Assembly (NCBI GenBank): GCA_001899635.1
Contig: MKVQ01000044.1
Span: forward strand, 124,001-188,000
DNA: 64,000 bases
Reading direction: 5' to 3'
From: Myxococcales bacterium 68-20
Lineage (GTDB): Bacteria; Myxococcota_A; Polyangia; Polyangiales; Polyangiaceae
This document shows, piece by piece, positions 19,687-32,369 of the stretch. Numbering within the stretch: position 1 is the first letter of the stretch; the number at the start of each line of letters is the position of its first letter. The position numbers and the translations under genes are program-made. The notes under the pieces were generated by a model. That model ran no database searches, had not been told where the DNA came from, and was given only the letters and a program-made list of their open reading frames with translations.

Positions 19687-20301
19687 ATGTCAGCGCCAGC
19701 TCGTAGTCGCAGGACGAGCGACCACTTCTTCGTGGGAGCGGCCGTCGGAGTCGCCAGCCTCCTCTTCGCCGTGCTCGTCGGTCGAGACGATCTCGCCGGC
19801 GTGAGCGTCTTCGTCGGCCGCTTCCACCCGCTTGCGGTGCATCTGCCCATCGGCGTGCTCCTGCTCGCCGGGCTCCTCGAAGGGCTCGCGCTCTCGCCGA
19901 GGCTGCGCGCCCGGATCGATCCCGCCTTCGCGATCATCCTCCGATTCGCCCTCGTGTCGTTGGTGGTCGCCTTCGCGATCGGGCTCCTGCTCGCGAGTGG
20001 AGGTGGCTATCCCGAGCGGCTCCTCCGGCTGCATCAGCGATTGGCGTTCGGGACCATCTGGGGCTCGGCCGCTTCCGTCGTCATGTGGTCGAAACACGTC
20101 GAGCGTCGCAGCTCGCGTCTTCCTCATCGGCTCGCCCTCGGTGGGACGCTGGCGCTCCTCGCGATCGGAGCGCACTTCGGCGGTTCGATGACCCACGGCG
20201 AGAGCTACCTCGTCCAGCACGCACCCTCGTTCGCCAAGCGCTGGCTCCGTCTCGGCGATCCACGGGGGGAGAGGCGCCTCCCGGTCCGTCCGTCCCCGTG
20301 A
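19687..20301 (+). CDS. DUF2231 membrane protein (N-terminal half of a cytochrome protein?)
   Basis: 204 aa with four to five membrane helices. The FHPLAVHLPIGVLLLAG segment is the DUF2231 signature, as is the conserved histidine pair in later helices. In many bacteria this domain is the N-terminal membrane anchor of proteins carrying planctomycete cytochrome c (PSCyt1) domains. Here the frame ends after the last helix in a short Arg/Pro tail, and the PSCyt1 domains follow in the -1 frame. A G6 run at 20264-20269 lies just before the frame change. Confidence 0.8.
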   Translation: MSAPARSRRTSDHFFVGAAVGVASLLFAVLVGRDDLAGVSVFVGRFHPLAVHLPIGVLLLAGLLEGLALSPRLRARIDPAFAIILRFALVSLVVAFAIGLLLASGGGYPERLLRLHQRLAFGTIWGSAASVVMWSKHVERRSSRLPHRLALGGTLALLAIGAHFGGSMTHGESYLVQHAPSFAKRWLRLGDPRGERRLPVRPSP

Positions 20302-21710
20302 GCGCCCCTCGTGTCTTCGATGACGTGGTGCTCCCCGTGCTGATCGCGAAGTGCGCGAGCTGCCACGGTGCCGACATGGCGAAGGGGCAGCTCCGCCTCG
20401 ACAGCTTCGAGGCATTGATGAAGGGCGGCAAGGCGGGGCCTGCCGCCCTTGTCGGAGACGCGACGCGAAGCCTCGTCGTGCGTCGCATCACGAGCTCGAT
20501 CACCGACGACGCTCACATGCCGCCCGAGGGCAAGCCGCAGCTGACGCCGGAGGAGATCGAGCTCATCGTGCTCTGGACCGACGGTGGGGCGAGCTCCGCG
20601 ACGAAGGTGCGTGATCTGATCGTCCCGGACGGTGCGCGCCGGCTGCTCGTGAAGGCAGCGGAACGCGCGAGCGAGAGTGCTCACGTCGAGGCGGGGGCCG
20701 CGTCCGTGCCCGCAGCGACCGTCGCGCCGGTGCCCTCGACGACGACGCGCGAGGCACCGTCGCCGCCGACGACCACACCGGCCTCGAGCGGCGACGCCGA
20801 CTTTGGTGCTCGGATCGCGCCGATCCTCGCCGCCAAGTGCGGGCGCTGTCATGGCGCGGAGAAGCAGAAGGGAAAGCTGCGCACCGACTCGCTCGCCGCG
20901 CTGTTCGAAGGCGGAGAGAGCGGTCCGGCGATCGCTTCGCGCGATCCCGGCCGCGGCACGCTCCTCACGCGTATTCGACTGCCGGTCGAAGACGCCCAGC
21001 ACATGCCTCCACGCGACGCGCCGCAGCTGGATGCGAGCGAGATACGACTCCTTTCTCGGTGGCTCGCGCGCAGCGCCGTCAGCGGATCTCCTGCGAGTCG
21101 GCGCAGCGAGGCTCCGTCCGAGCGTGCGACCATCGCCCGCGAGCGGATCGCGACGGCATCGTCGCCGGACGAGTCGACCCGCCTCTTCGTCGAGGTGGTC
21201 CAGCCGATCCTCCTGAATCGGTGCGGTGCTTGTCACTCCGGGGCGCATCCCTCCGGGGGATTCGTCATCGCGGATCGCGACGCGCTCCTCGCCAGGTCCT
21301 ACGTGCTCCCAGGAGATCCGACCGCGAGCCCGCTCTTCTCGCGAATGGCGTCGCCGCTCACGGACGAGGATCACATGCCCCCGAAGCGAGCGCCGCAGCC
21401 GTCCCAGGCGGAGATCGACGCGGTGCGCCTGTGGATCGAGCGCGGCGCGAGCGTGAGTGGCGTCGATGCGAAAGACGCCCCGCCCGTGCTCGCGCGGACG
21501 CCGAACGCGACGAGCGTTGGCTCGCCTGAAGAGGAAGAAGAGCCGAGCCCCACGGTCGTGGCGGTCCAGCGAGCCAACGTTCGTGGAGGCTGCGCGGGAT
21601 GTGCCGTGAACCGGAGTGACGTCCCCGAGCGTCTCGCCTTCGGGGGCGGACCGCTGCTGCTGGCGCTCCTCGCGCTGCGGCGCCGCTCGAGCCTTCGAGC
21701 GCAACACTGA
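20298..21710 (+). CDS. three-haem PSCyt1 cytochrome protein with MYXO-CTERM-like tail
   Basis: 470 aa if started at GTG 20298, which overlaps the DUF2231 stop (GTGA). Three planctomycete-type cytochrome c domains are present: CASCH (19-23), CGRCH (181-185) and CGACH (309-313), each followed about 50 residues later by HMPP (73-76, 235-238, 359-362). The C-terminus has GGCAGC (430-435), a hydrophobic stretch and RRRSS, resembling the MYXO-CTERM surface-sorting signal. The protein has no signal peptide of its own although its haems must be attached outside the cytoplasm, which supports synthesis as a fusion with the preceding membrane protein. Role: periplasmic or surface electron transfer. Confidence 0.85.
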   Translation: MSAPRVFDDVVLPVLIAKCASCHGADMAKGQLRLDSFEALMKGGKAGPAALVGDATRSLVVRRITSSITDDAHMPPEGKPQLTPEEIELIVLWTDGGASSATKVRDLIVPDGARRLLVKAAERASESAHVEAGAASVPAATVAPVPSTTTREAPSPPTTTPASSGDADFGARIAPILAAKCGRCHGAEKQKGKLRTDSLAALFEGGESGPAIASRDPGRGTLLTRIRLPVEDAQHMPPRDAPQLDASEIRLLSRWLARSAVSGSPASRRSEAPSERATIARERIATASSPDESTRLFVEVVQPILLNRCGACHSGAHPSGGFVIADRDALLARSYVLPGDPTASPLFSRMASPLTDEDHMPPKRAPQPSQAEIDAVRLWIERGASVSGVDAKDAPPVLARTPNATSVGSPEEEEEPSPTVVAVQRANVRGGCAGCAVNRSDVPERLAFGGGPLLLALLALRRRSSLRAQH

Positions 21711-21788
21711 GTGCCATTCGTCACCCCTCGCTGTCCCCGCGACGAGGTCAACTTGCCGCGAGGACATCCGTCGACGACATCGTGATGC

Positions 21789-23570
21789 CTACTTCGTGAT
21801 GAGCGGCGCCTGGACGAGCCTGCGTGTGGCCTGCCCGCTCGGGTACGCGTAGCTCGCCGCGAGGTCCCAACCCCACAACGTCGCCGTGAACGCGCCGTCG
21901 CTCCGGAGGCGATGAGCGCCGTAATGGCACGCCTTGTCGCCGGACGTGGTGCCCGGCCGGTTACGCTTCGAGAGCTCGACCCGCGTCCACTCGTAGTCGC
22001 CGCGCGTGCCGACCGGTCGAAACCCCGTCACGGGGCCGCCGAGGCATTCGAGGGTGACGTCCTTGAATTCCCCGTCGGTCTTCGCCCGCACGATCACGAG
22101 CGACGTCTCCGAATACGTCGGATCGGCGTAGAAGCTCGCCGCGGTCAGATACTGTCCAGCGGCGATCACGTTGACGAACTCCGGATCGCCTTGGCCGGCG
22201 AAATCTCGTCCACTGCCCCAGTAGTCTCCACTCTGGCCGGTCATGTACTGGGCCACATGGATGGGATGTTCGGCGTCTTGCGTGCGAACGACGAACGCGT
22301 CACCCACGCCGGAGGCGAAGGCGGCCACCTCGCCGGCGTTCAGCTCGAGAGGCGCTCCGCGCGGGACGACCGGATCGTAGTCGAGCCGCGTCCCGTCCCG
22401 CACGGCGACGATGCGGTACGGCATGGGCTCGTGCTCATCGCCGCGGCGCGGGCGATAGCCGACACCGACATATTCAGAGCCCCACTGCTCGTAGGCGGGG
22501 ACCTGCGTCCCCTCGAGGTCGGCCGTCCCGTTATCGGACGGGATGTCCATGATGACGTGCGCGGCGAAGATGCTCGTTGGCTTGGTCGAGGTGACGAAGC
22601 TCCCCGTGAGCTCTTGATGCTGGACCAGCTGCAGGAACTGCCCCTTCTGAAGACGGTACGTCGCCGGCACCCCGGCCGGCGAACCCGCGACTCCAATCCC
22701 ATCTTGGATGTCTTTCTTCGGAAAGATCGTCACCTCGGTGTCGTCCTCCGAAGCGACGATCTGCGCGCCTGGCGGAAAGATGCGGCCCGACGCCCACGCA
22801 TTGATCAAGATGTTCTCCTTCGACCAGGTCGAGACAGGCAAAAGGAGCGTTGCCGAAGGCGCAATGCTCGGCGCGCCGCCGAACGGGTAGATGGCCGCAG
22901 CGCTCACGGGGGCGCTCGTCTTCAGATGGAAGGATGAACCGAACTGGGTGCCATTTGGGTAGTAGTCGCGATAGAGGGCGGCGGTGGTTCCCGTCGGGCA
23001 AGGAGTATGGGCGCTCTCCGTCGAGGGGCGGTCGGGTCGAGTCGGGCGGTCCGAAACGAAGAGGACCACGCCGTCCCCCGGTGCAATGGCCCCGGTGTGC
23101 GGGACCAACGTCGCTTCGCCCGGGACCGTGCGGTACATCGATTTCGAGATATCGAGTGCCTTCCCTTGGTATTCGAGCTCGACGTCCACGGGAACCGTCG
23201 AGGTGTTGACGACGTAGCTCGCATAACAGCTATGCGCATGGAAAACCGTGGCGACCAGGAACGGTGGCTGGAGAAAGAACTCGCAGCCGTTCGAGCTTCC
23301 CTCCGCCGCCGCCGCCGCGCACTGTGCCTGGCATTTTCCGCCGCCACACGCGAGGTCGGAGGGGCATGCCTCGACGAGCTCGCCCGTACACTTGATGACC
23401 GAGCGACCATCGAGCGAACACCTGTCGACACAAGCTCCCGCGTCGACTTCCGGACTGAAGCCCGGAGGCGAAGGGCGGAAGGCGACGCGATCCTCTCCAC
23501 AGGCGCCGGCGCTGACGAACGCGAGCCCAGCGACGAGAACGGACGCGACGCGCGAGACTCGTAGCATCAT
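21789..23570 (-). CDS. IgGFc-binding-domain surface protein
   Basis: 593 aa, last gene of the ECF-sigma operon. A signal sequence is followed by a Cys-rich segment (residues about 40-90, with CVDRCSLDGRSVIKC) and then by a large beta-rich domain resembling the IgGFc-binding protein N-terminal domain: repeated ATYRLQKGQFLQL, SIFAAHV and HPIHVAQYM-like strands occur in the usual order. Bacterial members are extracellular adhesin-like proteins of unknown ligand. ATG 23570 overlaps the stop of the RCC1 gene (ATGA). Confidence 0.82.
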   Translation of the reverse strand: MMLRVSRVASVLVAGLAFVSAGACGEDRVAFRPSPPGFSPEVDAGACVDRCSLDGRSVIKCTGELVEACPSDLACGGGKCQAQCAAAAAEGSSNGCEFFLQPPFLVATVFHAHSCYASYVVNTSTVPVDVELEYQGKALDISKSMYRTVPGEATLVPHTGAIAPGDGVVLFVSDRPTRPDRPSTESAHTPCPTGTTAALYRDYYPNGTQFGSSFHLKTSAPVSAAAIYPFGGAPSIAPSATLLLPVSTWSKENILINAWASGRIFPPGAQIVASEDDTEVTIFPKKDIQDGIGVAGSPAGVPATYRLQKGQFLQLVQHQELTGSFVTSTKPTSIFAAHVIMDIPSDNGTADLEGTQVPAYEQWGSEYVGVGYRPRRGDEHEPMPYRIVAVRDGTRLDYDPVVPRGAPLELNAGEVAAFASGVGDAFVVRTQDAEHPIHVAQYMTGQSGDYWGSGRDFAGQGDPEFVNVIAAGQYLTAASFYADPTYSETSLVIVRAKTDGEFKDVTLECLGGPVTGFRPVGTRGDYEWTRVELSKRNRPGTTSGDKACHYGAHRLRSDGAFTATLWGWDLAASYAYPSGQATRRLVQAPLITK

Positions 23571-24868
23571 GGCAAGCTCACTTTCACCGGAACGATGCTC
23601 GACTTTCGCATGACTCCGTTGCCCAACTGTCCGTGGTAGTTGTTTCCAAAACAGTAGATCTCGCCGCTCGTCAAAAGGACGCATGTGGTGTCATGCGTCG
23701 TCCTCACTTGCGCCGCGGGGGTGGGAAGACCGACGACCGCGACCGGCCGGAAAGCGGGGGTCTTCGTGCCGTCGCCGGCCTGGCCGGAGCCGTTCTCGCC
23801 CACACAAAACACCGCCCCCGAGGCCGCCGCAGCGCACCATCGTGCAGACCTGAGGACGTCGTAGGGATAGAAGCTTTCGCGGACGGTCCTCGTCGTCGCG
23901 ATCTGCACGATGGGCTCGGGCGTCCGTACGAGACGCGGGGTCGGTCCATCCTCCGTGCCCCAGCAATAGGCGGCACCGCCCGCCGCTACACACGCGCGGT
24001 CTGCTACCAGGTCCACCGCCGTGATCGGGCCGAGGGTCGTCGGCAACGGAATTGGATCAGGGGAGAGCGACGACGCGCGTGCGAGGAGGATGTTCGCTCC
24101 CCAGCTCTCGGAGGTGCCGTCCTCGCGGACGATGAACGAGACCTCGTTCACGGCGACGTCCCGGATCGGTGCCCCGGGGCCGAACGCAATCGCCCGCGGC
24201 GGATGCAAGGGGGCGAGCGTGAAAGGACCATCGGCCGCCACCTGTCCGGAAGCGTTCGAGCCCCAGCAAAGGACGCCGCTCTCGACCACTGCACACGCGG
24301 TTCGGGCATTCGCGCTCACCTTCTTGGCGGGCGGGATGTCCAGCTTTACCGGCGTCCGTTCGGTCGTGATGCCCGCGTCGCCCTGCAGGTACGGGCCTGT
24401 TCCCCAGCACCATGCCGCGCCGGTCTTGTCGACCGCGCACGTGTGGTCGAGCGCGACGATGTCCGAGAGGCCGACGACACGAGCCGGCGTTGCGCTGTCG
24501 TCTGGCGCCTCGCCGCGACCGAGCTGACCGTCCTTGTTGGCGCCCCAGCACGCCACGGTCCCGTCGCGGAGAAGCGCACAGAAGCTCTCGTCCTGCGCCG
24601 TGACGAGCGCTACGGCGCAGGACGGAGACTCACATTCGACCGGGAGGAGCCCACCGTCGAACGGCGCCGCGTCCGGAAGCGAGCCGTCCGCCCCCGCGTC
24701 TTCGAGCGGATTCGAAGCCTCGAACGAGGCGTCCGGAAGGAGCGCTTCTTCACCGCCTTCTTCGCGTGCGCTGGAACAGCTCGCGGACGCCATCGCTCCT
24801 GCCGCGCAGGACAGGAACACGATCGCGGTCGGAGAATACCGATCAAGGAGTCGTCTTGTGGAGCGCAT
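23567..24868 (-). CDS. RCC1-repeat lipoprotein
   Basis: 433 aa. A signal region ending near SASC is followed by an Asp/Gly/Pro linker and five or more RCC1 (ATS1-type) repeats, readable as CALLRDGTVACWGANKDGQLG-like units; these form a beta-propeller with probable disulphides. Bacterial RCC1 proteins of this type are exported and thought to mediate binding, but no ligand is known. It overlaps the upstream propeller gene by 26 nt and the downstream IgGFc-binding gene by 4 nt. Confidence 0.82.
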   Translation of the reverse strand: MRSTRRLLDRYSPTAIVFLSCAAGAMASASCSSAREEGGEEALLPDASFEASNPLEDAGADGSLPDAAPFDGGLLPVECESPSCAVALVTAQDESFCALLRDGTVACWGANKDGQLGRGEAPDDSATPARVVGLSDIVALDHTCAVDKTGAAWCWGTGPYLQGDAGITTERTPVKLDIPPAKKVSANARTACAVVESGVLCWGSNASGQVAADGPFTLAPLHPPRAIAFGPGAPIRDVAVNEVSFIVREDGTSESWGANILLARASSLSPDPIPLPTTLGPITAVDLVADRACVAAGGAAYCWGTEDGPTPRLVRTPEPIVQIATTRTVRESFYPYDVLRSARWCAAAASGAVFCVGENGSGQAGDGTKTPAFRPVAVVGLPTPAAQVRTTHDTTCVLLTSGEIYCFGNNYHGQLGNGVMRKSSIVPVKVSLP

Positions 24869-26138
24869 AGCGATCTCCTACGGCCCAGAGGTTTGTGTTG
24901 GACGTGCCCCGAATCTGGTTGGGCGGCCCATTCGACGGCGCGCCGTTCAGGGCGATCGACGAATATTCGTAGACGCCGCCGTCCCCCCAGACCTGGCTGC
25001 CACGAACAACGACGCCACGATTACTGTTGAAGAAGGTGCTCCCGAGCCATAGGCGATCTTCGGACTCACCCCAGAGCGAGATCAAATTCGGAGCGTCGAG
25101 CAATGTCTTGGGGACGTTTGCGATGTTCACGGAATAGCCGTCGCCATCCGGTTCGATTCGAAGGAAGTTGTTCCAGCTCTTGAGGGCGAAGAACCGTTCG
25201 CCGTCCAGGGACTGGAACTTCCGCGGCCATGCCCTGGGGCCACCGACGACCTGCGGGATGCCTTCCCGGGCCGTGCACGGATCGGAGTAGAGCTCCGGCA
25301 CGACGCCGTCGGCGATCCGACGATACCCTTCGGGCGTCTTGCGTACGAGGACGTCGCACGGCTCCTTGGTGCCGCGGCGTCGGCTGCCGGCGAACCATAC
25401 GTCGTTCGGGCTCTTGCCGGCTGCCCCCGTGATGAAGATGTGCTCGTCGGGCGCGTCGAAGTCGTCAGCGATGAGCTCCGGGACCCATGCGGGCGCTCCG
25501 CCACCTTCGCTCTTTCGATGAAAGATGGTGTTCGAATACCAGGCATAGACGTCGTCGCTGCCAGTTCCCCATACACCGAGCGTCAGGCGCCTTTGAGTCG
25601 CGTCTCCGTGGTTGACGTTCGCGGGGTTGTTGTCGGGGAGCCGTTCGCTGCTCCACGACCACGCCGTAGCGGGGGCTACGGGGCGCGTTCCGCGGTAGAT
25701 GGTTCCGGGCGAAACCGCGTAATAGACTTCGTCGGCGCTCGGCGCCCAGATCCCTACTGCAAGCTCGGCGAGCGCTTCATTCTGGCTGTTGTCGTCGATG
25801 TATCGCCACGTCGAATCGGTGCTCGTCCACTCGAGGACTTTGATACCGGAGGTGAAGCTCTCCGCGATGGCGAATGCCCGGTCCGAGAACGGCCAGATGT
25901 CTCTCACCACGAGGTCCGGGTCGGGCAGCAACGTCTCGCACCAACCGTCCGAGCTGCACAAAAGCCCGCGCGTGGGGGCGGGTGCGTCGCTGCCGACGGC
26001 CACTTCGCGCACGTCCGCGTCCGGAATCGACTGCTCGGGCTCCTCGTGAGGCGGACTGGACACGTCTTCGGACACGGCGCAGGCGGCAGCGGCCACGAGC
26101 GCGATCGACACTCCCCCGAGAACGGCAAGGCGCCTCAT
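24843..26138 (-). CDS. propeller-repeat lipoprotein A
   Basis: 431 aa. Signal with lipobox-like AAAAC, then an acidic/Pro linker and a region with scattered 'SxxDVW/VYxxG' repeats (for example GVWGTGSDDVYAWYS, KSPNDVWFAGS, SNTNLWAVGDR), the pattern of beta-propeller surface proteins common in myxobacteria. GGAGG lies just upstream of ATG 26138, which overlaps the previous stop (ATGA). It resembles the next gene upstream in design, suggesting a duplication followed by strong divergence. Confidence 0.78.
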   Translation of the reverse strand: MRRLAVLGGVSIALVAAAACAVSEDVSSPPHEEPEQSIPDADVREVAVGSDAPAPTRGLLCSSDGWCETLLPDPDLVVRDIWPFSDRAFAIAESFTSGIKVLEWTSTDSTWRYIDDNSQNEALAELAVGIWAPSADEVYYAVSPGTIYRGTRPVAPATAWSWSSERLPDNNPANVNHGDATQRRLTLGVWGTGSDDVYAWYSNTIFHRKSEGGGAPAWVPELIADDFDAPDEHIFITGAAGKSPNDVWFAGSRRRGTKEPCDVLVRKTPEGYRRIADGVVPELYSDPCTAREGIPQVVGGPRAWPRKFQSLDGERFFALKSWNNFLRIEPDGDGYSVNIANVPKTLLDAPNLISLWGESEDRLWLGSTFFNSNRGVVVRGSQVWGDGGVYEYSSIALNGAPSNGPPNQIRGTSNTNLWAVGDRYALHKTTP

Positions 26139-27436
26139 GGCTTTCCTCCAAGCGAAAGAACGACCCCCTCGCCGCCGACCCAGACGTGCCCCGGGCCGGA
26201 CGTCCAGACGGTGCTGAGATTGGGGCGACGCGAGCCGAGCCCACCGATCTTCATCCGCGACCAGCGTGTGCCGTCGTAGTGAAGGACGACGGCATCCTTG
26301 CCCACCGCCCAGATGTCGGAAGCGGAAGAGCCGAACACGGCGTTGAGCCTCATCTCCTCCGGGATGTCCGGGACGATCTCCCAGAGGTAGGGAGCTCCAG
26401 TGTAGTGCCGGATGGTCCCACCGAAGCCGACCGCCCATACGTCGGACGGGGAAGCTGCCCACACGCCGTAGAGCGCGTTTCGTGTCTGGCTGTTGTAGGC
26501 TTTGGCGCTTGGCGAATTGCCGCTCGCGCCGGTGACACGCACTGCAGCGCCGTCCATCCCGACCGCCCACAGTTCGTCCGCCGAACTGCCGTGCAGACCG
26601 GCGAACGTGCCGAGGTTCATCGCTGCGACCTCACCCGTCAACCCATTCGTGGCGTTTCCGCGCAAGCGAATGAGACCCGACGGGCCGGCAAACTGCCCCG
26701 GATACAGCGGCGCCGTCGCCAACCAGAACCACTCGGAGCCCGGAGCACTCCACCCATACGTCACGGTCTGACTTCCAACATCGAACGGGGGCTTGGGGGC
26801 GATGACGGGCGCACCACCAGCCGTCCAGCCGCCGGCGCCGGCGTCCGGCGAATCGACGAGGCCGCGCGAGTAGACTTGGTCGAACCCAGCGATTCCGACT
26901 TCGTGGTCGTCGCGGAGCCAGAGCGTTCGCAGCGTCGGAATGTGCCCTTGCGGCGACTCGGGAGTGACGGGGACCTCCGAGCGGACCCACGACGTCCCGT
27001 CGAAGCGCGTGGCCGCCCCGAGCGCCCCGACCACCCAGACGTCGCTTTCGGAGCGACCGCGGACGAGGTGGACGGTCGTGCGCCCGTCGAAGTGATCCGG
27101 CCCACCGAGAGGCTTCGCGAGATCGAAGAGTCCATTCGGGCACAGGACATCGGCGGAGCACGCCGGGGGAAAGTACTCGCAATCCCTCGTGCACGGCGCG
27201 CCGGCGTCGGCCGGTGCACCGGAATCGTCACTAGGCGCGGGGGCGGGGGCCGGGTCGGGCGCTGGGGGGGAAACATCCTCGTTGCTCGTGGCAGCGCATG
27301 CGCTCAGGGCTGCCGCGCAGGTCGCGAGCGCCGTCGATACTGCAAGGGTCAATCCTCGTCTCCGGAGTCCGGCATTGCTGGACGGAGACCACGGGGTCGG
27401 CCAAGGCCGAGCTGCATTCAACCGGCGCGTCTTCAT
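26135..27436 (-). CDS. propeller-repeat lipoprotein B
   Basis: 433 aa. Signal sequence ending ALSAC, an unusually Pro/Ala-rich linker, two cysteine pairs (CTRDCEYFPPAC, CPNGLFDL) and then at least five repeats around SDVWVVG, ADELWAVG, SDVWAVG and SDIWAVG spaced by 40-60 residues, consistent with a six- or seven-bladed propeller. GGAGAGG precedes ATG 27436, which overlaps the stop of the Cys-repeat gene (ATGA). Extracytoplasmic; ligand unknown. Confidence 0.8.
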   Translation of the reverse strand: MKTRRLNAARPWPTPWSPSSNAGLRRRGLTLAVSTALATCAAALSACAATSNEDVSPPAPDPAPAPAPSDDSGAPADAGAPCTRDCEYFPPACSADVLCPNGLFDLAKPLGGPDHFDGRTTVHLVRGRSESDVWVVGALGAATRFDGTSWVRSEVPVTPESPQGHIPTLRTLWLRDDHEVGIAGFDQVYSRGLVDSPDAGAGGWTAGGAPVIAPKPPFDVGSQTVTYGWSAPGSEWFWLATAPLYPGQFAGPSGLIRLRGNATNGLTGEVAAMNLGTFAGLHGSSADELWAVGMDGAAVRVTGASGNSPSAKAYNSQTRNALYGVWAASPSDVWAVGFGGTIRHYTGAPYLWEIVPDIPEEMRLNAVFGSSASDIWAVGKDAVVLHYDGTRWSRMKIGGLGSRRPNLSTVWTSGPGHVWVGGEGVVLSLGGKP

Positions 27437-28644
27437 CGAGCAACCTCTCCCGAGCAAGGTTCGACGACGCAACGGCCGCCCGCACACGCTTGACCGGCGG
27501 CGATATCGCACGCAATCCCGCAACCGCCGCAGTTTTGCGGGTCGCTGTAGATGTCCACTTCGCAGTCGTCGTTCACATTTCCGTTGCAGTCGGCCCAGCG
27601 TTCAGCGCATTCGAGCTTGCACTCGCCGTACTCGCAGACCCCTTTGCTGCGCGTCGTCCGGCCGGGGCACGCGCGCCCGCAGGCGCCGCAGTTCTGCTCA
27701 TCCGTGGCGAAGTTGGCGCACATGCCGATGAAGGGTTCGGTGAAGCTGATTCCGCAGAAATTCTCCCCGGCAGGGCATCTGCACGCGACTCCTTTGAAGA
27801 GCTCCAGTACGCAGTTCATGCCGCGTGCGTGACAGTTGTCTCCGCACTGTCCGCAGTTGTCGTGCGTGCTGAGTCGCGTCTCGCAGCCGTCGGAGTTCGG
27901 CTGTCCGATGTCCATGTTGCAGTCGGCGTATCCCTCCATGCACTTGAACTTGCCGCACTCCCCATCTCCGCATCCGTATTGTGTATTGGGAAGAGCGGGA
28001 GGTGCCCCGAAGCCCCCGGTGGGATCGCACACGTTCCCGCATGCTCCGCAGTTGTTGTCGGCGTACCTCAGGTCCACGCAGGCGTCCTGCCATGGAAAGT
28101 CGGGCTTGCAGTACGAATTGGGGGCGGTACAGCCGCACGCTACTTTTTGATTGGTTGGCGGCTGTCTGATGCAAGGCGCGTCTTCGGCGCACTTGTTTCC
28201 GCACGAGCCGCAATGGTCATCGCTTCTCAGGTCGGCTTCACATCCGTTGTCGATGACCCCGTCGCAGTCTTCGCGCTCAGCGTTGCACTGCAGGACGCAA
28301 CGGCCTTCGATGCAGTCGAAGCTCTCGGTCGATGTCCGCATGGGACACGCCGCACCGCATGCGCCGCAGTTCTTCGGATCGGACCTGAGGTCCACATCGC
28401 AAAGGAACTTCGAGCCCAAACAAGTGGTCCACCCCTCCGGACACTTGTTGGACGCGCAGTAGTCCGTGAGCGTCCTCGTCGCCACGTCCGCCGCCGCGTC
28501 CGGCGGCGCTTCGAAGGCCGGGGGCGTGGTGGTCGTGTTTTCGGCGCCGACATACATGTCCGAGGCGCAACCCGCGGGGCTCACGCCGAGGAGGCCGAGG
28601 GCGACGGTGCTGCAGGCGACGACGGTTACCTTTCGAGCAAACAT
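27433..28644 (-). CDS. cysteine-rich repeat lipoprotein
   Basis: 403 aa from ATG 28644. Signal ends SPAGC. The mature chain has six repeats of the form D-x-x-NCGACGxxC, such as PKNCGACGAAC, DHCGSCGNKC, NNCGACGNVC, DNCGQCGDNC, QNCGACGRAC and QNCGGCGIAC, alternating with CxxGxxxCxxxxxDCN(xx)DGCE-type segments. The repeats are characteristic of exported myxobacterial proteins and should be held by disulphides. The start shares one base with the upstream stop (TGATG); a GTG one codon earlier gives a 4-nt overlap instead. Confidence 0.85.
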   Translation of the reverse strand: MFARKVTVVACSTVALGLLGVSPAGCASDMYVGAENTTTTPPAFEAPPDAAADVATRTLTDYCASNKCPEGWTTCLGSKFLCDVDLRSDPKNCGACGAACPMRTSTESFDCIEGRCVLQCNAEREDCDGVIDNGCEADLRSDDHCGSCGNKCAEDAPCIRQPPTNQKVACGCTAPNSYCKPDFPWQDACVDLRYADNNCGACGNVCDPTGGFGAPPALPNTQYGCGDGECGKFKCMEGYADCNMDIGQPNSDGCETRLSTHDNCGQCGDNCHARGMNCVLELFKGVACRCPAGENFCGISFTEPFIGMCANFATDEQNCGACGRACPGRTTRSKGVCEYGECKLECAERWADCNGNVNDDCEVDIYSDPQNCGGCGIACDIAAGQACAGGRCVVEPCSGEVAR

Positions 28645-29411
28645 CACGGCTTCTCCGTCAACGCCGCGAGGCGGCTCAGATGGGCGGATCGAGGGAAGGC
28701 CGAGCGAAACGCCTCGGCGCGCAGAGCCGCTTCGCGGCGGCGGCCGAGGCGAGCCAGCGCGTCGATCGCGATGACCTCGCGCTCCTGCGCGAGGATCCCG
28801 CGCGGATAGACCGACGGGTGATCGTCGGCCATCTTCAATGCCTCGGAAGGTGATGACGCGAGCGCCGCCTGCGCGCGACGGAGGAAGTCGACCTCCGGCT
28901 CACGCGGCGTGGCGGGCGCCGGGGGCGCGGTTTCCTCGGGAGCCGCAGCGAGCTCGGTGCTCGCGGGTGATTCGTTCATCGGGCTCTGGGCGGGCAGTGG
29001 TGCCGCGGCGAGCGTGGTGCTCGCGGGCAACTCGTTCCGCATGCGCAGGACAGGCGTCTTCGTCGCGACCACGAGCGCCGCCGGCGGCGTCTCGACGAGC
29101 GCCTTCTCAGGCGCGGTCGGCGCCTCGTGGCGAACGAAGGTCACGCGCGGACCCGTGCTCGGCGCGCTCGCGTCACGCTTGGCGACGCTGCCGCCGCTCT
29201 CGGCGTAGGGTTGTGCGAGGAGGCCGAGACCGACGACGGCGAGGACCGCCGTGGCAGCGTAGAGCGGACGGAGCGGGATGCCCGGCTTCGAGTCGAGCCA
29301 CGGCGAGAGCTTCCGTTCGAGGCGCTCGGCCTGCTCCACGGTCGGTGTCGCTCGGCTCGCTCGAACGAGTGCTTCGAGGAGAGCCTCGGGGTCTTGCGTC
29401 GGTCGCTTCAT
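28644..29411 (-). CDS. membrane anti-sigma-factor-like protein
   Basis: 255 aa. A cytosolic N-terminus of about 50 residues (two helices), one transmembrane helix (LYAATAVLAVVGLGLLA, about 52-68), a long Ala/Pro/Thr-rich periplasmic linker, and a C-terminal helical region (about 170-255) that resembles a TPR-like tail. Position directly after an ECF sigma gene with a 4-nt ATGA overlap is the classical arrangement of an anti-sigma factor. No zinc-binding HxxxCxxC motif is visible, so it would be a non-ZAS type. Function inferred mainly from context. Confidence 0.7.
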   Translation of the reverse strand: MKRPTQDPEALLEALVRASRATPTVEQAERLERKLSPWLDSKPGIPLRPLYAATAVLAVVGLGLLAQPYAESGGSVAKRDASAPSTGPRVTFVRHEAPTAPEKALVETPPAALVVATKTPVLRMRNELPASTTLAAAPLPAQSPMNESPASTELAAAPEETAPPAPATPREPEVDFLRRAQAALASSPSEALKMADDHPSVYPRGILAQEREVIAIDALARLGRRREAALRAEAFRSAFPRSAHLSRLAALTEKP

Positions 29412-29968
29412 GTCTCGTCCTCGGAGTGTTTCGCGAGCTGCGCGACGAGCTGCTTCTTCGCGGCGGCGAGGCGCGAGTAGGCGGTCGCGGGTGGGCAGCC
29501 GACGATGGCGGCGACCTCGGCAATCGGGAGCTGTTCGATCTCGTGGAGAGCGAAGACGGCGCGTTTGTCTTCGTCGAGCGTTGCGATGAGTGTCATGAGC
29601 TGCTCGGAGGCGTGAAAGCGCTCTACGTCCGCAGCGAGGAGCAGAGCCGGCGGCGGCTCGGGGACTTCGTGCACGAGGACCTCGCGCCGTACGCGCGCGC
29701 GGCGGCGGTAGGTCGACGCCGCGCGAAGGCAGATGCGGTAGATCCACGCGCGCATCTGCCCGCGCTCCTCGTAGTGCGGGAGCTTCTTGAAGATGACGAC
29801 GAAGACTTCCTGCGCGACGTCTTCGACGTCTCGCGGGGCGACGTTCTGGCAGCGCAGGGTTCGCCAGACGAACGGCAGATGCTGCGCGAAGACCTCGCGG
29901 GCAGTCACGGCGCGCGCGTCAGCCGACGCGACGTCTGCTTGCTGCTGGTCCCATGTCGCCTCGGTCAT
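29408..29968 (-). CDS. ECF RNA polymerase sigma factor
   Basis: 186 aa from ATG 29968 (GTG 29989 also possible). Region 2 is readable in FVWRTLRCQNVAPRDVEDVAQEVFVVIFKKL with RAWIYRICLRAASTYRR, and region 4 in LPIAEVAAIVGCPPATAYSRLAAAKKQL, a helix-turn-helix for -35 recognition. It is a sigma-70 family group IV factor that probably transcribes its own operon: the membrane protein and five secreted proteins downstream follow with overlapping starts and stops. The inducing signal is unknown. Confidence 0.9.
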   Translation of the reverse strand: MTEATWDQQQADVASADARAVTAREVFAQHLPFVWRTLRCQNVAPRDVEDVAQEVFVVIFKKLPHYEERGQMRAWIYRICLRAASTYRRRARVRREVLVHEVPEPPPALLLAADVERFHASEQLMTLIATLDEDKRAVFALHEIEQLPIAEVAAIVGCPPATAYSRLAAAKKQLVAQLAKHSEDET

Positions 29969-30074
29969 TCCTCGACGTAAGGGCGGCACCGTCGAGATTT
30001 TCGCAAACCGAACGGGAGAATTTTCGAAATCGGCGCGCGAGCCGCGATCGCGCTGCTCAAAGCTCGACCATGGC

Positions 30075-31034
30075 TCAGAGCTCGAGCGTGACGCCCAGAC
30101 CTCCGACGCCGATCACATGCGACGTCCGCCCGAGCACGCGGTCACCGCCGCCCTCCTCGCCAAAGAGGAGGTCCACGCTCTGAGGCGTCGCGATGGCGCC
30201 AAGGAGGAGGAAGCCACGCAGCTTGTCGGTGAACGCGTATGACGCTCGCGCTTGGACGAGCCCGCCGAACGTCGACGAGTAGGCCGTGGCGTTCTCGGAG
30301 AAACCTCGGCCCCACGCCGCGTAGAGCGTCGCCTCGGGGCCGACGCAAGCGAGGAGGCCGAACCGCGACTGCGCGACGTTGAGGGGGCAAAGCGAGACCG
30401 CAAGCGTGCCGCCGGCGAGGCCGTATTGCTGACCGTGCGCGGTGCCGTGCGTCTGGAGCTGGAAGAGCAGGTCGGCGACGACGGGGACGAACGCGTGCGG
30501 TAGGACCTCGAGGGAGAGATTGGCGCCTGGATGGATGGCCGGCCCATCGTCGAGGACGGCGGCGGGCGCGATCGCCGCGCGGAAGCGCATGGGCGGCGGC
30601 TCGACGCGCACAGCGCGCACAGGCGGAGGCGCGCGCTCGACGGGTAGCTCGGGGAGATCGGCCATGAGCGAGATCGCGAGCACGAGCGTGTCCGATGCTT
30701 CGCGGCAGTCCTGTCCTTCGATGTCGAGCTCCCGCGCTCCGAGCGCGACGCCGCGCTTCGTGGAGAGATCGATCGTCGCGTGCCATCCCGAGGCTGCCGG
30801 CGCGATGGACGCGCGGAGGATGCGGTCCGCGACGGCGCGCGGCGCGAAGACACGCCGATTCAGCGAGCGTTCGACGTCCTCGACGATCTCCGTCTCGGAG
30901 AGGCACGCTTCGGCACCGGGCGTCCGCGTCCACTCGAAAGACGCGAGCCCACGCGTCCCTTCGTCGGCGCGCGCCGCCGCCCCTGCGAGCATGCCGAACG
31001 CCACGACGACGGCGCAAACAGCCCACCGTCGCAT
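30075..31034 (-). CDS. exported protein, possible outer-membrane beta-barrel
   Basis: 319 aa with a clear signal peptide cut after AARA (about residue 23). The N-terminal half has two cysteines and resembles a small alpha/beta domain; the C-terminal half (about 145-319) is Gly/aromatic-alternating and ends in GVTLEL, suggesting a beta-barrel or beta-rich domain. Proteins of this kind often accompany ECF sigma genes in Polyangia; I cannot name a function. It is 85-106 nt upstream of the sigma gene on the same strand. Confidence 0.65.
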   Translation of the reverse strand: MRRWAVCAVVVAFGMLAGAAARADEGTRGLASFEWTRTPGAEACLSETEIVEDVERSLNRRVFAPRAVADRILRASIAPAASGWHATIDLSTKRGVALGARELDIEGQDCREASDTLVLAISLMADLPELPVERAPPPVRAVRVEPPPMRFRAAIAPAAVLDDGPAIHPGANLSLEVLPHAFVPVVADLLFQLQTHGTAHGQQYGLAGGTLAVSLCPLNVAQSRFGLLACVGPEATLYAAWGRGFSENATAYSSTFGGLVQARASYAFTDKLRGFLLLGAIATPQSVDLLFGEEGGGDRVLGRTSHVIGVGGLGVTLEL

Positions 31035-31232
31035 GCGAGCTGCAAACGCTACCAGCGCCGCACCATTCGTCGCAAGGTCATCGACCTACTGCTCGCAGGG
31101 AACCAGCTCACGGCGTGTTCCCGACTGGCGACGCCAGGGGAGCTGGAGCGGAGGACGGCGAGGGCGATCCTCCTCATACGGCGGGACGACGAGCGCGGCT
31201 GCCGCGAAAGGATGCTTCGACGCCGACGCCGA

Positions 31233-32369
31233 TCAGTTCGAACAGATCCCGGCCTTCGCCGGAGCCGAGGCATCCGCTGGTGCGGGAGGATCCGGAACCG
31301 GCGTGACCGCGTGCAAGCAGGTGGAGGTGTTCCCCTGCAAGGTGCAGTCGAGGCTCGTGCAGCAGTACTTCGGCCCCCCCGGGCACCCCATCACGGGCGA
31401 GACGCACACGGCCCCTCCGGGTGCACCACAGCAGATGGTGCCCGCTCCGCACGTCACGGCCCCGCAATGGATCACACCGTTCGAGTCGCAATAGGGCTCC
31501 GTGCCGGCGTCGACCCCGGCGTCCGCCGGCGTGCAGCGTCCGAAGGGAGCGCCATTCGCTCGGATGCAATCGAACCCGGGTTTGCAATCGGTGGTCGTGC
31601 AGCAGACCCGATCCGACTCGGCGCAGGACGGCTCGCAGGTCGTGGCCGTCGCCGACGTGAAGCAGCACAGGGCCCGGGCGGGGTCGCATCTCGCTCCGTT
31701 GCACACGAGGCCGGTCGCACTGCAGTACGTCGAGGATGGGCCCGCGTCGGACGCATCGACGGGCTCGGTTGGCCCGGCGGCGTCGGGCTCGGGCTCGACC
31801 CGACTCGCCTCGTCGACGCCGCCGTCCTCGAGCACTCCGGGCGTTTCGCAGTCGCTGCCGGAGCAGCGCGTCTCGGAGTCGAAGCAGAGACCGTTGCTGC
31901 ACGTGGAGAAGGCGTCGCACGGGACGCCGGCGCAGTCGGGATCGATCACGATCGGCATGCGCAGACGCGTGTGCTCCGAGAAGGCGAAGCGCCGGCGCGC
32001 GACGATGCAGCCTTCGTAGAGCGGCGGCATGCACGTCGCGGGATCCTTGCCCTTGTAGCCGGCGACGACGACGACGGACGCGCGCGAGCTCGACTCGCCG
32101 GGCGTGACGACGAGCGTCCCGATCCTTCCGGTCGGGTCGTCGCACTGCGAGGTCCGCGCGGTGACGAAGCCGGTCGCGAGGCGCGTCTCCGTGTCGGCCG
32201 GCTCGACACCGACCGTGATCGCCGTGCCGCTCCCGATCTCCTGGCAGCGTGCCTTCTTGTCGAGCGAGAGCTCGAGCGTCACCTGCGTCGGATCCTGGCA
32301 GCCCTGCGCGAGCGCGAGGATGGCGCAGCCGACGAGCGAGAAAGCGAGGACCGTGCGCCTGAGCTTCAC
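31233..32369 (-). CDS. cysteine-rich lipoprotein
   Basis: 378 aa. Lipobox LAQGC at about residue 24. An N-terminal beta-sandwich-like domain (about 25-150) is followed by Asp/Glu/Pro linkers and short Cys clusters including CCFTSATATTC, CAESDRVCCTTTDC, CGAGTICCG and KYCCTSLDC. The CC-containing repeats recall the other Cys-rich lipoproteins in the window. No enzyme motif. It begins 24 nt after trmH and may be co-transcribed with it. Confidence 0.78.
   Translation of the reverse strand: MKLRRTVLAFSLVGCAILALAQGCQDPTQVTLELSLDKKARCQEIGSGTAITVGVEPADTETRLATGFVTARTSQCDDPTGRIGTLVVTPGESSSRASVVVVAGYKGKDPATCMPPLYEGCIVARRRFAFSEHTRLRMPIVIDPDCAGVPCDAFSTCSNGLCFDSETRCSGSDCETPGVLEDGGVDEASRVEPEPDAAGPTEPVDASDAGPSSTYCSATGLVCNGARCDPARALCCFTSATATTCEPSCAESDRVCCTTTDCKPGFDCIRANGAPFGRCTPADAGVDAGTEPYCDSNGVIHCGAVTCGAGTICCGAPGGAVCVSPVMGCPGGPKYCCTSLDCTLQGNTSTCLHAVTPVPDPPAPADASAPAKAGICSN

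Follow-up and report, generated by a model that had tools for sequence, protein, structure and literature searches.

Fec-type signalling (FecA-FecR-FecI) brings together an exported protein, a single-pass anti-sigma factor and an extracytoplasmic function (ECF) sigma factor in one operon. In Bacteroides thetaiotaomicron, 26 sigma/anti-sigma systems are linked to sugar-use genes, and the periplasmic domains of the anti-sigma factors contact SusC-like porins (PMC3878776). Here we describe a locus of Myxococcales bacterium 68-20, lying in a 64,000-nucleotide stretch of contig MKVQ01000044.1 (positions 124,001 to 188,000; hereafter the window), in which genes for an ECF sigma factor and a putative anti-sigma factor are followed by genes for a Cys-rich protein, two propeller-like proteins (propA and propB), an RCC1-repeat protein and a protein with an IgGFc_binding domain. 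The locus is one copy of an abundant cassette built of two modules: R, comprising up1 (the gene 5′ of sigma), sigma, the putative anti-sigma and the signal peptide and linker of the Cys-rich protein, and S, comprising the Cys domain, propA, propB, RCC1 and IgGFc.

A seven-gene cassette occupies nearly a tenth of the genome

Using profiles built from the window proteins on 139 genome stretches, we identified 122 sigma-Cys-IgGFc cassettes, 114 of which have all seven genes in one prevailing order; contig ends truncate a number of cassettes, which makes the count a lower bound. The cassettes sum to 1,127,090 bases (~1.13 Mb), or 9.5% of the genome; up1 lies directly 5′ of sigma in 97, and ten have a third propeller gene. 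The IgGFc_binding family (PF17517) has 141 matches in the 11.9-Mb genome and the sigma factor at least 150 relatives, with a sigma relative 5′ on the same strand for 122 of the 141 IgGFc domains (112 of these at 6–7 kb). The copies are spread over many contigs and both strands, and mostly have low protein identity (median 0.20–0.40 by gene, maximum 0.60–0.90), which together argue against an assembly artefact. Across 237 sampled genomes of the phylum, this one has 144 IgGFc candidates, one congeneric genome has 48, and the others have at most 25.

The first-pass annotation, which took the seven genes for an operon, proposed looking to relatives for conserved synteny. Among the paralogs the order is indeed kept, and two congeneric genomes keep it too, as judged from spacing. 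The gene overlaps are not due to chance, because (A/G/T)TGA coupling recurs in the paralogous copies: at 126 of 130 Cys/propeller junctions, 120 of 135 propeller/propeller junctions (including one TTG), 104 of 128 sigma/anti-sigma junctions and 90 of 125 RCC1/IgGFc junctions. Median dN/dS values among 14 close pairs range from 0.29 (IgGFc) to 0.42 across the genes; the cassette genes are under purifying, somewhat relaxed selection, and wholesale decay is not indicated.

Some cassettes, on contigs C12, C16, C17 and C40 of this genome (G000), stand in tandem or close runs, and a cassette resembles its neighbours no more than it does distant ones (26 pairs <40 kb apart, with medians of 0.31 for S and 0.28 for R). 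Broken remnants lie at G000:C48:255528-256006 and G000:C23:209712-212133: among them are IgGFc pieces that carry TGA/TAA stops, a sigma relative that carries an internal TGA, and a fragment of IgGFc.

Modules R and S are inherited separately

In the first-pass annotation, tight coupling of the genes suggested products in fixed stoichiometry and one envelope complex that the sigma factor would switch on. Identities and trees do not support a single co-evolving unit: the regulators are inherited independently of the five exported proteins among the copies. In pairwise comparisons of 98 complete cassettes, identities correlate within up1-sigma-anti-sigma (r 0.71–0.77) and within Cys-propA-propB-RCC1-IgGFc (0.83–0.94), and the values between modules are 0.04–0.16. 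Trees of 81 cassettes share 35–39 of 78 splits within R (39 for up1 and sigma) and 29–48 of 78 within S, with only one or two common to R and S. S identity is ≥0.65 in 25 pairs, just one of which has R identity ≥0.45, and clustering gives ~26 re-pairings as a rough, threshold-dependent minimum.

R and S are thus separable modules, joined within the gene for the Cys-rich protein. In sliding windows along the alignments the Cys domain tracks S (0.80), and the signal peptide and linker track neither set strongly (0.16–0.26 with sigma, 0.07–0.08 with S). Cassette limits were set by pairwise DNA comparison. Where S is similar and the regulators are unlike, the DNA match runs from ~98 nt 5′ of the first NCGxC to the IgGFc stop, its 3′ end lying at a median of −2 nt relative to that stop (quartiles −15 and 0); where R is similar and the S blocks are unlike, it runs from up1 or sigma to ~155–290 nt into Cys. 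Behind unrelated regulators, S-block DNA reaches 88% identity over 6.9 kb, and this similarity begins in frame with the Cys domain's first Cys.

The youngest pairs have dS of ~0.2–0.3 in prop1, prop2, RCC1 and IgGFc, and higher values in Cys. At the codons TA(C/T)-TGC or equivalent, identity in these pairs jumps from chance to at least ~90%, and it drops at, or no more than ~100 nt from, the IgGFc stop; for the pair C21_105p/C42_245m a separate similar stretch extends past this stop. Flanks copied together with the S blocks would still align at such low dS, and since they do not, the S blocks have been joined to different regulators, be it by double crossover, by gene conversion or by some other route. 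In the window itself, the junction (Table 1) was placed by analogy with other copies, the blastn start being less precise for the window's own diverged S pairs.

The two modules occur apart in other genera

Across species, R-S pairing was tested in ~30 short loci. In other genera and families, 22 of 30 sigma loci have R without S, no Cys gene being within reach, and one more has the trio with a Cys-family match. These stand-alone up1-sigma-anti-sigma trios of other Polyangiales (L148, L258–L287) are homologous to module R and identical to it in order; unlike in the cassette, the block of five predicted lipoproteins does not come after the trio, and in L148 (JAQSWN010000192.1, a Polyangiaceae contig) ~9 kb without a detectable S gene follow. 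Stand-alone IgGFc_binding proteins of Myxococcota share the PF17517 domain, but in six other genera none of 30 IgGFc loci has RCC1 directly upstream, although these loci are short and more distant partners would escape notice. In the congeneric genomes G003 and G006, sigma lies upstream of 25 of 46 and 8 of 17 IgGFc genes, respectively, mostly at 6.3–6.95 kb. With R alone and IgGFc without RCC1 in other genera, and full spacing in the same genus, it appears that this genus joined two units of older origin.

Moderate evidence points to exchange after speciation: locus L250 of G003 has regulators 82/85/71% identical to those of one cassette here and a Cys domain nearer another (82% vs 66%). Elsewhere in G003, L230 (G003:C201:39357-39917) is a sigma/anti-sigma pair without an exported block; it shares 94%/87% identity with the corresponding pair of the present genome and is far better conserved than the cassette-borne pairs. 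Two loci of Sorangium cellulosum (L157 and L164) have two successive up1-like open reading frames (ORFs) and two sigma-like ORFs, with a Cys-rich protein encoded ~3–7 kb further downstream.

Anatomy of the locus

The seven leftward genes and each of their overlaps were reproduced on the minus strand from ORF calls and sequence: ATGA at 29411 (sigma/anti-sigma), 27436, 26138 and 23570, 26 nt at 24868/24843, and TGATG at 28644 (anti-sigma/Cys), where an alternative GTG start is possible at 28647. The operon was drawn too short at its 5′ end, up1 also being part of the cassette (Table 1).

Table 1. Cassette features in the window, by window position
Feature	Position	Strand	Remarks
up1, 319 aa	30075..31034	−	First gene of module R, immediately 5′ of sigma
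ECF sigma factor	29408..29968	−	Module R; start ATG 29968
Putative anti-sigma	28644..29411	−	Module R; one transmembrane helix, TPR-like C-terminal domain
Cys-rich lipoprotein (predicted), six CGxCG repeats	27433..28647	−	Signal peptide and linker on R side, Cys domain on S side
R/S module junction	28440..28470	−	Codons TAC-TGC (28461-28456), ~90 nt 5′ of first NCGxC
propA, propeller-like lipoprotein (predicted)	26135..27436	−	Module S
propB, propA paralog, lipoprotein (predicted)	24843..26138	−	Module S
RCC1-repeat lipoprotein (predicted)	23567..24868	−	Module S; RCC1_2 8.2e-28
IgGFc_binding-domain lipoprotein (predicted)	21789..23570	−	Last gene; module S ends at its stop

Domain scans (Pfam, NCBIfam) strongly back the assignments of the sigma factor (Sigma70_r2 1.2e-10, r4_2 5.3e-13, TIGR02937 2.8e-20, all above curated cut-offs), the RCC1 protein (by Pfam) and the IgGFc_binding domain (PF17517, 1.6e-94; 316.9 bits vs a gathering score of 25.6, over positions 1–297 of 297). 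The Cys-rich protein is backed moderately: the six CGxCG repeats are present in its sequence, and it matches NF041328 (MXAN_6577-like) at 73.3 bits, under the curated cut-off of 100, and is also related to STIG1. For the IgGFc protein, no credible match was found among solved structures. What had been described as two different beta-propellers are mutual paralogs, since the propA and propB profiles cross-hit, and the propeller fold itself is weakly supported (a Rax2 propeller match in four of 16 members, best 4.7e-4; tectonin E 0.057).

Two ORFs were rejected as cassette neighbours. 'down1' (20205-21767, −) is antisense to a real cytochrome gene (20085-21710, +), which is convergent with the IgGFc gene, codes for a cytochrome c protein of planctomycete type (PSCyt1 1.9e-35) and lies outside the cassette; 'up2' (31174-32145, −) overlies a different ORF (31233-32369, −) just 5′ of up1, which is Cys-rich, has an Asp/Ala-rich linker and is without a Pfam match.

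Predicted properties of the products

Export of the five downstream products, as originally proposed, agrees with lipoprotein signals in most paralogous copies: in a strict lipobox screen these were found in 67 of 130 Cys, 77 of 128 propA, 104 of 124 propB, 116 of 127 RCC1 and 116 of 132 IgGFc proteins, with a lipobox Cys that is near-invariant in propA and invariant in propB. The five S products look like lipoproteins, so they would naturally be placed in an outer-membrane or surface complex. None of the seven proteins matches PADLOC models of anti-phage defence at E ≤ 0.01.

The up1 product, for which no Pfam family was found, has an export signal sequence and an alpha/beta domain at residues ~28–129. 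The AlphaFold2 model has predicted local distance difference test (pLDDT) values of ~77–93 for residues 31–120 only, and the domain is predicted to have a fold of the TolB-N/CsgG/TraT type (VIA Z 8.3–9.5 over 95–110 residues among the best rows; Foldseek TolB 2.6e-4), a type common in the periplasm. We suspect that the C-terminal half is an outer-membrane barrel.

The putative anti-sigma factor fits its description as a membrane protein, in that it adjoins sigma, is translationally coupled to it and is single-pass, with one transmembrane-like segment at about one third of its length in 92 of 98 copies. Its model has two short N-terminal helices (pLDDT ~60), the transmembrane helix, a long linker and a C-terminal domain (pLDDT mostly >89) whose best match, a weak one, is to a BamD-like tetratricopeptide repeat (TPR) domain (E 0.08). 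The position of sigma in the operon suggests that it may be autoregulated. An expectation-maximization (EM) motif upstream of sigma, '.TTTtgTGAtca' (log-likelihood ratio 245 vs 36 when shuffled), was rejected as a promoter, as it largely represents the last codons and stop of up1 (e.g. ...TTC-TGA).

Proposed role and alternative explanations

Copy number, gene order, overlaps, separate inheritance of R and S, block boundaries and intact frames are the observed ground for an explanation that we consider fairly probable: the locus belongs to a family of two-module cassettes, of which it is a single copy, each an envelope-sensing sigma switch plus a five-lipoprotein surface set, diversified by re-pairing. 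Module R would be the switch, in which the periplasmic TolB/CsgG-like domain of up1 and the TPR-bearing, single-pass anti-sigma restrain the ECF sigma until an envelope event frees it; the products of module S would probably form one surface-exposed recognition or adhesion complex. R and S, separate in the order, would have been fused in frame within the Cys gene in this genus, and the fused cassette multiplied to ~120 mostly intact copies in this species, with S blocks copied or swapped behind other R modules during the expansion to give a repertoire of sensor-to-surface-complex pairings. We infer the signalling mechanism, the surface location and the complex, together with a ligand and a benefit to the cell. 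More tentatively, and at somewhat less than an even chance, the repertoire may be combinatorial, ~120 switch modules and ~120 five-lipoprotein modules being re-paired at a fixed in-frame junction such that the pairing of signal to complex is itself the variable trait.

Several observations weigh against this explanation. A coarse association of R and S remains (Mantel 0.12, p 0.0005), R-similar pairs having S medians of 0.43–0.44 vs a background of 0.31, and orthologous cassettes in other species (L247, L252–L254) retain the same R-S pair, so re-pairing must be slow. On the regulatory side, the AlphaFold2 model of up1 lacks a confident fold in its C-terminal half, no recognised anti-sigma domain was found in the putative anti-sigma (Pfam, E ≤ 1), the model of which has two cytoplasmic helices only, and neither gapped-word counts nor EM found an ECF promoter motif common to the DNA preceding sigma or up1. 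As to recombination anchors, boundary DNA is only mildly conserved: four-fold-site matching rises slightly where the Cys domain begins (0.43–0.48 vs 0.38) and is not raised at the IgGFc end. Inspection of flank families by sequence, with no profile scan, noticed no recurring recombinase or transposase family; the largest recurrent families, of 14 and nine members, resemble protein kinases and PAS sensor kinases.

That the cassettes serve nutrient capture in the manner of Bacteroides polysaccharide-utilisation loci, each sigma/anti-sigma pair sensing a substrate and inducing its own surface binding complex, would account for the many paralogous surface operons headed by ECF sigma/anti-sigma genes, which follow the same logic, and for exported products that resemble binding proteins. 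We regard this as quite improbable, since no TonB-dependent transporter, SusD or hydrolase was recognised in the cassette (Pfam, NCBIfam) and S blocks are not tied to particular sensors, as substrate-specific induction would favour. Recognition of kin or prey is a version of the two-module explanation with a named purpose: strain-specific sets of lipoprotein complexes would mediate self/non-self or prey contact, and re-pairing would alter when a type is displayed. The huge species-specific expansion (144 IgGFc candidates vs 0–48 in congeners), the diversity of the surface-type proteins and the purifying but relaxed selection are consistent with it; however, no toxin or immunity gene was recognised in the cassette by the same scans, and we consider it unlikely. 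Selfish or neutral spread, in which two repeat families happen to insert side by side without joint function, is in keeping with the independent histories of R and S and the enormous copy number, but is hard to reconcile with the fixed order, the in-frame fusion within one gene, the conserved start-stop couplings, the presence of all seven genes in 114 of 122 cassettes, dN/dS of 0.29–0.42 and the lack of any mobility gene noticed in the flank families inspected; we give it very little credence.

Relationship to known systems

In its regulatory logic the cassette is of a familiar kind. To our knowledge, there is no previous description of its output of five lipoproteins, of its scale or of a switch and an output that are inherited independently, and we know of no established function for myxobacterial IgGFc-domain proteins. 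The first-pass annotation had called the gene combination undescribed, and among open-access papers on myxobacterial IgGFc, ECF expansion and paralogous or shuffled operons, none appeared from its title and abstract to describe it. If the two-module explanation is true, about a tenth of the genome is devoted to one family of operons, in which sigma, anti-sigma and envelope proteins form on the order of 120 paralogous sets, and would offer a natural laboratory for sigma/anti-sigma insulation and the origin of new regulator-output pairings; clean re-pairing at one domain boundary would be a directly testable case of modular regulatory rewiring.

Like Fec-type signalling, the cassette combines an exported protein, a putative single-pass anti-sigma and an ECF sigma; unlike in Fec, no TonB-dependent receptor is recognised in up1, whose modelled domain is TolB-N/CsgG-like, and the putative anti-sigma has no FecR family match (Pfam, E ≤ 1). 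An envelope-to-sigma relay would fit the example of the Bacteroides sigma/anti-sigma systems reading SusC porins, assembled from different parts. In Bacteroides Sus-like loci (PMC3878776), as here, tens of paralogous surface operons per genome begin with genes for an ECF sigma and a membrane anti-sigma (putative in the cassette), with a switch probably coupled to an outer-membrane protein. The cassette differs in that no SusC/SusD or enzymes are recognised in it (Pfam, NCBIfam) and that its putative anti-sigma has a TPR-like domain, without a recognised FecR-type domain (Pfam, E ≤ 1); and unlike the Bacteroides loci, it is present as ~120 copies of one fixed gene set, among which regulators and outputs have been re-paired.

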